In this document: positions 1,621-52,181 of the stretch, piece by piece
How positions within the stretch are numbered: position 1 is the stretch's first letter
How the letters are laid out: every line of letters begins with the position of its first letter
NCBI RefSeq assembly: GCF_040703125.1
Contig: NZ_CP160035.1
Span: 372,001-436,000 of the forward strand
Reading direction: 5' to 3'
DNA: 64,000 nt
Origin: Flavobacterium ovatum
Lineage (GTDB): Bacteria > Bacteroidota > Bacteroidia > Flavobacteriales > Flavobacteriaceae
The notes under the pieces: generated by a model
Seen by the model: the letters and a program-made list of their open reading frames with translations, nothing else
Database searches by the model: none
Told to the model about the DNA's origin: nothing
Made by a program: the position numbers and the translations under genes

Positions 1621-2076
1621 AACTTTATTTTTTACCGCAAAGGTTTTTTTGCCACGAAGGCTCGAAGACACTAAGCTTTATTTTTACTACCGCAAAGGCG
1701 CTAGGGCGCTATGCTTTTTTTGTTGACTTATATTTAGACGCGATGAATCGCGTCTCTACGGAATTTCCTAAAATGCAAAAATCTTTCTCTTTAGCCCCGA
1801 TAGAGCCGATATCCTTTTTGGTTTTTTCTTTAAAAAACAAAAAGATAAAGGCGAAAGCGGGAAACCAACTTCCTGAAAATGCCGAAATTACTGCTCCATA
1901 TTCTTTAAAATTTTGGAACTGCAAAGTAACGCAATACCCTTACCACTTGCAAGTGTATTTTTAAGTTTCTAAGTGACTAAGTTGCTAAGATTCTAAGTTC
2001 TCTAATAAACTAAAAAGGTTCTGAGTTACTAAAAAACTTAGTAACTCAGAACCTTAGTAACTCAGCAACTTTATTT
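1621..2076. repeat. Intergenic repeats and hairpins between metH and the FNR gene
   Basis: No gene is supported in this 456-base gap; two overlapping reading frames at 1709-1964 have no family-like features. It holds repeated ACCGCAAAGG-type units (1634-1705), a palindrome AGACGCGATGAATCGCGTCT at 1737-1756, and a run of AGTNACTNAG direct repeats from about 1965 to 2071 that includes a perfect hairpin. This is dispersed repeat material typical of the window. Confidence 0.7.
2015..2055 (-). terminator. Perfect 18-bp hairpin after the FNR gene
   Basis: The arms 2015-2032 and 2038-2055 are fully complementary (AAGGTTCTGAGTTACTAA and its reverse complement) around the 5-base loop AAAAC. The hairpin lies 21 bases past the FNR stop codon, and a T-rich stretch follows in the minus direction. 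It is built from the local AGTAACTCAG repeat, so repeat-derived structure and a working terminator cannot be told apart. Confidence 0.6.
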
Positions 2077-11039: not shown

Positions 11040-11450
11040 TTAAAAAGCGATATCAGCCAGTGAATTATTTTCTAAAATTTTTAAGGTATTATCACGAACC
11101 TCAGCCATTAACTTTCGCACAGCACAATTGACTTCATCTGTACAATCATCGCATTTTTCATAAAAGTTATGACTTGCACAAGGTAATAAAGCAATTGGCC
11201 CTTCGAGAATGCGATAAACGGTAGCCATATTGATTTCTTTTGGTTCTTTAATCAAATAATAACCACCACCTTTTCCTTTTTTGGCACCCAAAAAACCAGA
11301 ATGACGCAAAAGTAACAAGATACTCTCTAGAAATTTAATCGAAATATTCTCGCTCTTTGCAATATCAGCAATAGCAACTGGCGTTTGATCTTCTTGGCGA
11401 GCCAAAAAAGTCAACGCTTTGATTCCGTATTTTGTTTTTTTAGAAAGCAT
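11040..11450 (-). CDS. Rrf2-family regulator with four C-terminal cysteines
   Basis: The 136-residue protein opens with an Rrf2 winged helix-turn-helix (LSKKTKYGIKAL, IADIAKSENISIKFLESILLLLRHSGFL, KGKGGGYYL). It has Cys91, Cys100, Cys103 and Cys109 in the region where IscR holds its Fe-S ligands. The spacing (C-x8-C-x2-C-x5-C) differs from IscR, so the ligand (Fe-S cluster, another metal or a thiol switch) is open. Rrf2 members include CymR, which controls cysteine synthesis in Firmicutes. The place next to TSUP and cysH and the shared promoter motif suggest it governs sulfate assimilation here, which is inference. Confidence 0.88.
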   Translation of the reverse strand: MLSKKTKYGIKALTFLARQEDQTPVAIADIAKSENISIKFLESILLLLRHSGFLGAKKGKGGGYYLIKEPKEINMATVYRILEGPIALLPCASHNFYEKCDDCTDEVNCAVRKLMAEVRDNTLKILENNSLADIAF

Positions 11451-18382: not shown

Positions 18383-18465
18383 GATTTTTTTTTTTTACTT
18401 GTTTGACTTAATTTTTGTTTGTTTCTATTTTTGTTTGTTATTCTTTTACTCTTCCCAATTTACGA

Positions 18466-18502
18466 AAAAAAAACCCTTTTGGATTTGATACCAAAAGGGT
18501 TT
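18466..18502 (-). terminator. Attenuator terminator B
   Basis: A perfect 12-bp stem (AAACCCTTTTGG at 18471-18482 with 18491-18502) with loop TATCAAAT on the minus strand is followed by a run of T. Upstream on the RNA, UUGAUACCCAAAAG (18520-18535) can pair with CUUUUGGUAUCAA, which covers the 5' arm and loop, over 13 bp with one bulge. That pairing would prevent the terminator. Confidence 0.85.
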
Positions 18503-18531
18503 ACTATACTTATAAACGTTTCTTTTGGGTA

Positions 18532-18606
18532 TCAACAGACCAGCTTCTGTGCACAAAACACAGTAACGGATGATTTTTTATTATTTTTAGTACTAATTGT
18601 AATCAT
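18532..18606 (-). CDS. Leader peptide B (24 residues, Cys at 18 and at the last codon)
   Basis: A short frame begins ATG at 18606 and ends with Cys24 (TGT) and TGA at 18532-18534. Cys18 lies in VFCAQ and Cys24 in KLVC. The stop codon overlaps the 5' arm of the antiterminator. A ribosome finishing at the stop would hide that arm and favour termination, whereas one stalled at Cys18 would leave it free. This is the geometry of amino-acid attenuation responding to cysteine. No protein evidence is available, and the call rests on the RNA layout. Confidence 0.6.
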   Translation of the reverse strand: MITISTKNNKKSSVTVFCAQKLVC

Positions 18607-18775: not shown

Positions 18776-19041
18776 TTTTCTTTTCTTTTGTTCTGCAAAG
18801 ATATAAAACAATCTTTATTAGCAGCTATTATTTTTAAGAAAATTTGACCCAACTACACTAATTAACAGTTAATTGTGTTTTTTAACATCAAATTTCGATT
18901 CTCACTTTAAAAAACAAATCAATTAGGAGCTTTTTCTTCAAGTTCCTTTTAAAACTTCTCTATTCCACTCCTTTGATTTGACATTCCAAATGTACAACCA
19001 AAATCCATATTGGATGTTAAGGATGTTTTAAATTACCGTTA
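18776..19041. other. Gap between metY and leader A
   Basis: Apart from the -7 box of leader A near its left end, I see no gene, strong hairpin or known RNA in these 266 bases. A small repeated ATCCATATTGGATG-type palindrome at about 19002-19015 is the only other structure noted. Confidence 0.5.
18796..18803 (-). promoter_or_regulatory. -7 box before leader A
   Basis: The minus strand reads TATCTTTG, a full match to TAnnTTTG, 20 bases before the leader A start codon. A -33 TTG at the ideal distance is not evident. Confidence 0.6.
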
Positions 19042-23772: not shown

Positions 23773-23784
23773 CACCTCAAAATA

Positions 23785-23903
23785 CAAGAGGAAAAATTTG
23801 AACTGATTGCAACCTCTTCATAATGAACCTAGTTGATTATGAGTACCAAAGATTATTTGGTAGAAAAAATGCTAAAGCAGATACTCTCCTTTAGTCCTTT
23901 TTT
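23785..23903 (+). promoter_or_regulatory. SAM-II riboswitch (long-loop form) upstream of metK
   Basis: P1 pairs AAGAGG (23786-23791) with CCTCTT (23813-23818). Its loop ATTTGAACTGATTGCA and the downstream AAAATGCTAAAGCAG (23866-23880) are the conserved SAM-II parts. Between them sit two extra hairpins, CATAAT/ATTATG (23819-23841) and TACCAAA/TTTGGTA (23844-23862), as in the long-loop SAM-II variant described from Bacteroidota. CTAAAG (23872-23877) can pair instead with CTTTAG (23889-23894) before a T-rich run, a possible expression platform. SAM would reduce production of its own synthetase. Confidence 0.78.
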
Positions 23904-51949: not shown

Positions 51950-52054
51950 AGGAGCAGAACGATTCCGTTTTTCAAGAACACCCCTCCTGCTCTACGCTAT
52001 CTCTCTTGCATTGGCTATCGCCATACAAGAGGATGCCGCTACGATCAGGGCTAT
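51950..52054. repeat. Dispersed structured repeat, copy 2
   Basis: It shares its ends (AGGAGCAGAA and ACGATCAGGGCTAT) and two hairpins with copy 1 at 20559-20675. Inner stem CTTGCATTGGC/GCCATACAAG differs from copy 1 in ways that largely keep pairing. It lies between the accD terminator and the ABC permease gene. Confidence 0.8.
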
Positions 52055-52181
52055 TAATTACATCCATTTTCCAGAAGATATTTTGTAAAAATATCTTATT
52101 ATATATGAGTAACTCTGAAATAAACATTCGTAAACACACCCAATCTCACGGATGTTGTCACGTCCCAAAATAGATTTACAA
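52055..52181. other. Gap after the repeat
   Basis: No gene, strong hairpin or known element is visible between the repeat and the permease stop. Confidence 0.5.

Follow-up and report, generated by a model that had tools for sequence, protein, structure and literature searches.

Layout of the leader B locus

In the 64,000-nucleotide stretch of Flavobacterium ovatum DNA analysed here (the window), a short cysteine-containing leader frame, leader B, lies between metY and a small gene of unassigned family, with a SAM-I riboswitch and a metX fusion beyond it. All features of the leader B element are on the minus strand. The region contains the following features, given in window coordinates with the basis for each.

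20471-20403, minus: class I leader of metY, MKSNKFNMCMTKRKFFCGYTIA (Cys9, Cys17); R2 match of 75.2 bits, itself a row of A2
20381-20348, minus: terminator behind the metY leader; rank 3 of 16 for alternative pairing
20316-19042, minus: metY, O-acetylhomoserine sulfhydrylase (TIGR01326); profile match
18796-18803, minus: promoter-like box TATCTTTG, 20 bases before the first leader frame; putative promoter
18775-18707, minus: first leader frame (class I), MNFIICKKSMVQSKEIRRSANA, 22 codons with one Cys (codon 6); sequence and R2 match
18675-18644, minus: first intrinsic terminator (GCCTCC type); the preceding leader region offers a pairing partner for its 5' arm
18606-18532, minus: leader peptide B (class II), 24 codons plus stop; homologues and the coding signature of relatives
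18535-18522, minus: segment A, UUGAUACCCAAAAG, the antiterminator 5' strand; contains the stop codon
18517-18499, minus: spacer hairpin P1, enclosed by the antiterminator; RNAfold, and covariation of the equivalent hairpin in relatives
18497-18485, minus: segment B, 5' arm and loop of the terminator, partner of A; computed folds
18502-18471, minus: intrinsic terminator of leader B, 12 bp with a loop of 8; fold and covariation
18465-18473, minus: U-tract, nine T; sequence
18382-18182, minus: 66-aa small protein with the C-terminus MYSKENETLFI; no known family
18156-18111, minus: probable terminator of the small gene, a hairpin (-19.4 kcal/mol) with a T run behind it; fold
18007-17885, minus: SAM-I riboswitch (RF00162) upstream of metX; Rfam
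17814-14422, minus: MetX fused in one frame to a bifunctional aspartokinase/homoserine dehydrogenase, 1130 aa; profile match

Read directly, leader B encodes MITISTKNNKKSSVTVFCAQKLVC, with cysteines at Cys18 and Cys24, and the frame closes TGT-TGA. Segment A, at the stop region, forms a 13-bp helix with segment B in which one base is bulged. The terminator has 11 bp at 18501-18472 in RNAfold and 12 bp with an extra A-U pair. RNAfold assigns -14.1 kcal/mol to the fold from A to B versus -15.5 kcal/mol to the terminator, and the optimum for the whole stretch (-16.4) contains the A:B helix. Each of these parts had been described in the original prediction, namely the 24-codon frame with its two cysteines, the 13-bp pairing with one bulge and the 12-bp terminator, and all were reproduced. 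Absent from it were the strand, the upstream leader and terminator (18775-18644) and the hairpin between A and B (18517-18499). No Rfam family matches above its gathering score over 18466-18606.

The promoter-like box, which we take to be of the Bacteroidota TAnnTTTG type, lies about 190 bases from leader B. The R2 match to the first leader covers 18758-18644 (88.2 bits; the sequence is itself a row of A2), and the end of the first terminator is 37 bases upstream of leader B in the same direction. Leader B would be the second of two attenuators in series, both of which must be passed before transcription can continue. The class I leader in front of metY is probably the peptide A of the original prediction. 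Across the genus, the class I model R2 has hits at E <= 1e-3 in 159 of 199 Flavobacterium genomes, and plain terminators occur among its weaker hits; some loci carry class II without a recognised class I (for example L039, L046 and L049).

The window holds other RNA elements and a regulator. A SAM-II riboswitch (23782-23885, plus) precedes a frame that by eye resembles S-adenosylmethionine synthetase, and two Flavo-1 RNAs lie at 1789-1868 (plus) and 51979-52056 (minus). An Rrf2-family regulator (11040-11450, minus) is encoded near the cys genes; below superfamily level its top named hit is CymR, which scores under the cut-off, and it is a possible second layer of cysteine control. We saw no leader by eye before the window's own cysH (10253-9969), where the sole R2 match is on the opposite strand with E 8.8.

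Conservation and alternative pairing of the class II element

A covariance model of the class II element, R1, matches 77 of 199 Flavobacterium genomes at E <= 1e-4, once in each and twice in G019, although R1 was built from 40 sequences of the same genomes that it then matches. Twelve loci matched by R1 fall outside those 40 sequences, and in these the element stands before metY (L181-L183, L185-L187, L189-L192, L194 and L195). A second R1 match in the window's own genome, at 767684, is a plain terminator by eye. Searched alone, the leader peptide gives matches at E <= 10 in 46 of the 199 genomes, mostly at chance level; eight of these matches, among them the one in the window, sit directly before a hit to the small gene. 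A pattern search of small-gene loci, which skipped those lacking a CTTTTGG-type terminator and gave no leader for L101 and L108, returned 53 loci with a Cys-containing frame and such a terminator. Most of the 53 close GTC TGT TGA and retain both A and B; in one, L052, the UGA is lost and the frame stops two codons later.

An exact pattern search of named genomes found 82 stretches. Among the 80 listed, the small gene comes next in 73, and in six of the other seven the sequence ends within 330 bases; the titles are all Flavobacterium except for one Flavobacteriaceae bacterium and one [Flexibacter] strain. In viral contigs a pattern matched 25 stretches, none encoding a relative. An Rfam scan of 12 related loci yielded SAM and SAM-II only. 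One of the two class II copies in G019 (L195, near 2402-2495) has a frame that stops where L041 has Cys, and is possibly a decayed copy.

We also examined whether the pairing of A with B stands out in the window. A simple rule found 16 terminator-like hairpins, and the 58 bases upstream of each were tested against its 5' arm and loop. The strongest alternative pairings are those at 18501 (-14.1), 18673 (-13.8) and 20380 (-11.7), against a median of -5.05, and these three are exactly the terminators behind leader frames, although the ranking used no leader-frame information. Among relatives, cognate A:B pairs average -10.8 kcal/mol versus -9.7 kcal/mol for swapped ones, and none of 5000 permutations is as low (70 unique pairs; the two L195 elements were skipped, and relatedness among sequences was retained). 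An earlier run with 45 pairs gave 6 of 2000 permutations. Shuffled A pairs far more weakly with B (-5.0 kcal/mol).

Covariation could be followed more fully in the terminator and P1 than in the antiterminator. In the terminator and P1, changes occur on both sides in 12 of 14 pairs (all 83 rows); no shuffle of 500 reaches four of the five covariation measures and 5 of 500 reach the fifth, in an alignment that was fitted to the structure being counted. Slid partners score below the true pairs, and for P1 74.7% of cells hold a pair. In A:B, covariation is limited because the core, CCAAAAG, shows almost no variation; by eye a mismatch adjoins the core in L042, L043, L048, L055 and L063. The covariation proposed as a check of both helices is seen for the terminator, with P1 in addition, and only to a limited extent for A:B.

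The original prediction was to be judged by whether relatives keep the short frame and the alternative helix. Both are kept, as is the terminator, and cysteine is enriched in the 79 related leaders described below, so the prediction stands on this point. The same observations bear on the reading that the locus is an ordinary terminator beside a chance frame with no regulation. Beyond the genus this reading has something to draw on: across 249 family genomes R1 is strong in Flavobacterium only, and while 36 of them give an R1 match at E <= 0.01, only the window's genome and G060, of the same genus, fall below 8e-5; the weak matches outside the genus, among those listed, are plain terminators by eye. 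Within the genus, conservation, the top-ranked alternative pairing, cysteine enrichment, covariation, the preference of A for its cognate B and the coding signature all speak against it, and we regard it as highly improbable.

Leader codons and ribosome position

The leader set comprises the 79 of 83 R1 matches with E <= 1.6e-5 (four with E of 6e-4 to 9e-4 were dropped), of which 77 are unique. Coding was assessed in two clades of relatives, the window's own clade being too small and lying outside them. In the first (27 sequences, aligned by counting codons from the stop), the synonymous fraction of single-base codon differences is 0.48 in frame versus 0.24 and 0.12 out of frame; in the second (13 sequences) it is 0.36 versus 0.15 and 0.16. 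This signature indicates that the leader frame is very likely translated.

Cysteine makes up 8.6% of residues in the relatives' leaders versus 0.64% in window proteins (17 proteins, 6888 residues), a 13-fold enrichment, with 194 cysteines observed and 14 expected. Methionine is enriched as well (9.7% versus 1.4% in the 17 window proteins), so cysteine need not be the sole signal. Counted back from the stop, the 77 unique leaders have Cys at codon -1 in 62, at -3 in 31 and at -5 in 54, and more rarely at -6 (2), -7 (8) and -11 (22). The last Cys before UGA is the best conserved residue, ending 64 of the 79 leaders, and is the only one retained in the close relative L032. Three of the 79 elements (L101, L108 and one L195 copy) have no Cys in the chosen frame.

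The downstream edge of a ribosome lies about 12 bases past its A-site codon. With this footprint, a stall at codon -5 or earlier would free all of A and one at -3 would free its core, while one at -1 would hide A. Cysteine occurs at or upstream of -3 in 73 of the 77 leaders, and 62 of the 77 also carry Cys at -1, where A would be hidden. In the window's leader only Cys18, at -7, could free A, since a ribosome at Cys24 would cover it. The proposal that a terminating ribosome hides the arm and a stalled one frees it would fit Cys18 and fail for Cys24.

Codon hunger leaves the role of the best conserved cysteine, at -1, unexplained. Its position beside UGA could instead point to a nascent peptide that arrests the ribosome in the manner of TnaC or Erm leaders, with cysteine or another ligand acting near the conserved VC-stop end in place of hungry Cys codons. 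Arrest at the stop would, however, cover A and favour termination, and apart from its final two residues the peptide differs greatly from clade to clade, with shifting Cys positions. Leaders of other pathways, described next, carry Met, Ile/Val or Asn codons in place of Cys, as codon sensing predicts. We therefore consider peptide arrest improbable and return to sensing through the codons themselves.

To survey these leaders, we fetched 40 further class I matches, hand-picked from the ranked R2 list. Genes were named by eye, and one representative each of CysH, CysD, CysE, CysK, MetH, IlvE, IlvD, AsnA, MetY and OsmC was matched by profile search. The first 20 stand before metY (six, in L230 behind another frame), OsmC/metX (five), cysHDN (three), ilvE-ilvD (two), cysE-cysK (one) and a TonB-type receptor (one), with one on a cut contig and one without a leader. 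The second 20 stand before metY (nine), OsmC (four), metH, cysE-cysK, ilvE-ilvD and asnA (one each), and three are without a leader.

Codon content was tabulated for 47 leaders chosen by eye, leaving out those before OsmC/metX. Leaders of cysHDN contain 14.5% Cys and 7.3% Met, those of cysE-cysK 23.3% Cys and 11.6% Met, those of metY 13.2% Cys and 19.5% Met, and those of metH 2.1% Cys and 25.5% Met; in ilvE-ilvD leaders Ile and Val together reach 43.9% and Met is the start only. The cysHDN leaders (four loci including L197) carry CCC or VCCAC, the metH leader has Met runs, the asnA leader Asn, and the metY leaders both Cys and Met. In L358 and L365, which represent a second type of metY, the leader instead has Met runs and is low in Cys. 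In OsmC/metX leaders from other clades Cys is often less frequent, as in L350 and L357. Judged by the tabulated compositions, leader codon content follows the pathway of the gene behind, which is the strongest reason for reading the codons as the sensor.

Several individual leaders deserve mention. Runs of Met codons (MMMAMMMMNMMM) precede the second metY-type gene and metH in L358, L365 and L348, which are candidate methionine-codon attenuators. Ile/Val-rich leaders precede genes of ilvE-ilvD type in L352, L236, L237, L218 and L219, with three in series in L352 and L236. An Asn-rich leader, NNFSANNNLNN, stands before asnA in L361, and a frame INNNNNFNN before unnamed frames in L244.

Four-segment attenuators of the trp type have a protector hairpin in the leader frame. 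One candidate here, P0 (18563-18547), is a hairpin in the coding region around a Cys codon, and on inspection by eye it seemed persuasive in several clades. In 61 sequences, however, the 30 bases preceding the stop region have a mean z of -0.29 against dinucleotide shuffles. No protector hairpin in the leader frame is supported by this analysis, and P0 was dropped as a protector or pause hairpin on the same ground. Segment A would consequently be free also without a ribosome, as a general brake would have it, in which any slow or absent leader translation opens the antiterminator and cysteine plays no special part. The 13-fold enrichment of cysteine and the matching of codons to pathways are hard to reconcile with such a brake, and we give it very little credence.

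Taken together, these results make it very probable that leader B controls transcription as a three-segment attenuator, mediated by the ribosome and sensing through its Cys codons, and that it is the second of two in series. When Cys-tRNA is plentiful, the ribosome would reach UGA and cover A, the terminator would form and transcription would stop in vivo near 18466, the predicted boundary of the short transcript. When Cys-tRNA is scarce, the ribosome would wait at Cys18 and leave A exposed; A would then pair with B around the small hairpin P1, and RNA polymerase would read on. From its sequence, leader B looks like a conserved Flavobacterium switch that would turn its gene on at cysteine shortage.

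Downstream genes and relation to known attenuators

The first gene that RNA polymerase would reach in this genome encodes the 66-aa protein and has a probable terminator of its own behind it. Elsewhere in Flavobacterium there are genomes in which the element stands before metY, with the small gene after that. The 66-aa gene occurs in 78 of 199 Flavobacterium genomes, and its product matches no Pfam or NCBIfam family. Its predicted structure is not interpretable (mean pLDDT 65, pTM 0.28). The last eleven residues are nearly invariant and their codons vary synonymously; the rows were picked by a pattern that fixed Y, S and N and limited several others, so the conservation of M, L and F is the independent part. 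Class I and class II leaders followed by the 66-aa gene are found in the window and in relatives such as L032-L034, L036-L038 and L042, whereas in loci of the metY type the small gene comes after metY, as observed in L181-L183, L185-L187 and L190. L184 and L188 have short frames (105 aa in L184) downstream of the class II element and ahead of the small gene; these resemble the first part of MetY but fall short of the complete protein, and may be shrunken metY copies. More distant versions of the small protein, ending ENExLFI, lie behind a leader tandem in L198, L213, L214 and L232, the first three before OsmC.

The attenuator could be real and yet have the metX-aspartokinase fusion as its main target, reached by read-through of the small gene's hairpin, with the small frame incidental. 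A SAM-I riboswitch comes next in 12 of 12 loci scanned, with metX frames behind, and 17 of 77 loci lack a downstream hairpin of -8 kcal/mol or better. In the other 60, a hairpin of that strength and a T run lie within 150 bases past the small gene (versus 61 of 231 shuffles). A conserved promoter-like block, seen by eye with no control, stands before SAM-I; synonymous changes keep the C-terminus of the small protein; and the element precedes metY in 12 fetched loci. On this evidence metX is an unlikely, though credible, main target. The nearest target of leader B in this genome is probably the 66-aa protein, as it is the next gene and its own hairpin precedes the promoter-like block, SAM-I and metX. 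The sulfur genes foreseen as the target therefore do not come first here, where the small gene does, but they do in the 12 relatives with metY directly behind the element.

In the trp, his and ilv attenuators, a short translated frame with codons of the pathway precedes an intrinsic terminator and a mutually exclusive antiterminator. Leader B shares all three elements. Unlike them, it has no supported 1:2 protector hairpin, the antiterminator strand includes the stop codon of the frame, a second attenuator stands in series with it, and it would read Cys and perhaps Met. The SAM-I and SAM-II riboswitches of the cluster likewise control sulfur amino-acid genes through RNA, whereas leader B has a coding part and matches no Rfam family.

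Leaderless short frames with polycysteine tracts reportedly act as attenuators in mycobacteria, in work ascribed to Canestrari and colleagues in 2020. Cys leaders had been predicted earlier for mycobacterial cys operons, where the sections available to us report no conserved terminator hairpins (PMC1262725). Going by those sections, both systems place Cys codons close to the stop codon of a short frame ahead of sulfur genes. Here, however, both an intrinsic terminator and an antiterminator are conserved, and most leaders of class II have alternating Cys codons and no runs of them. The uORFC-8-2 motif of Rhodobacterales cysS is predicted to act by ribosome-mediated attenuation with conserved Cys codons and an intrinsic terminator (PMC8632094); as presented in the accessible part of that paper, it is alphaproteobacterial, stands before a Cys-tRNA synthetase gene and has two tandem Cys codons in its first stem, an RNA unlike leader B. 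In the same genus as leader B, Flavobacterium psychrophilum shows clues for leader-peptide attenuation before amino-acid operons, and the attenuation section of that paper names no Cys or Met leaders (PMC9723704). In the same phylum, long 5' UTRs of Bacteroides thetaiotaomicron contain short frames that have been likened to the leader peptides of attenuators, for which the passages available state no amino-acid signal or sulfur gene (PMC7366714). Tandem attenuators, with two short frames and stem-loops in one leader, are described in the accessible text for Salmonella mgtCBR (PMC3641672), a layout common to both systems, although that operon serves a Mg transporter and not amino-acid biosynthesis.

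A literature search that reached few subscription journals and no supplements found no Cys or Met leader attenuator for Flavobacterium or other Bacteroidota, and we accordingly count leader B as a new form of known attenuation. Leader attenuation itself is textbook; what is new is the combination of a three-segment, serial design with Cys and Met sensing in a sulfur regulon. The original statement that no attenuator of this kind was known for sulfur genes in Flavobacteria is narrowed by the mycobacterial Cys leaders, the Rhodobacterales cysS prediction and the F. psychrophilum clues.

A wider picture is possible, though we offer it tentatively. Flavobacteriaceae may possess a modular sulfur amino-acid regulon of serial leader-peptide attenuators, in which the downstream gene determines whether the sensor codons are Cys, Met or a mixture and two termination decisions are multiplied. 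In this lineage the pair would command a new 66-aa protein with the almost invariant MYSKENETLFI tail. This protein would act on the pathway once cysteine runs short, perhaps with its C-terminal Ile docked in a sulfhydrylase, much as the C-terminal tail of CysE docks in CysK. The CysE of one cysE-cysK operon ends in Ile and that of the window's genome in Lys, and docking is kept as an idea only. If the wider picture is true, Bacteroidota would sense cysteine and methionine with ribosomes and hairpins, beside SAM riboswitches. The serial layout and the pathway-matched codon swaps would offer a natural test of how attenuator specificity and dynamic range evolve, and an uncharacterised small protein would be indicated as an output of cysteine shortage.
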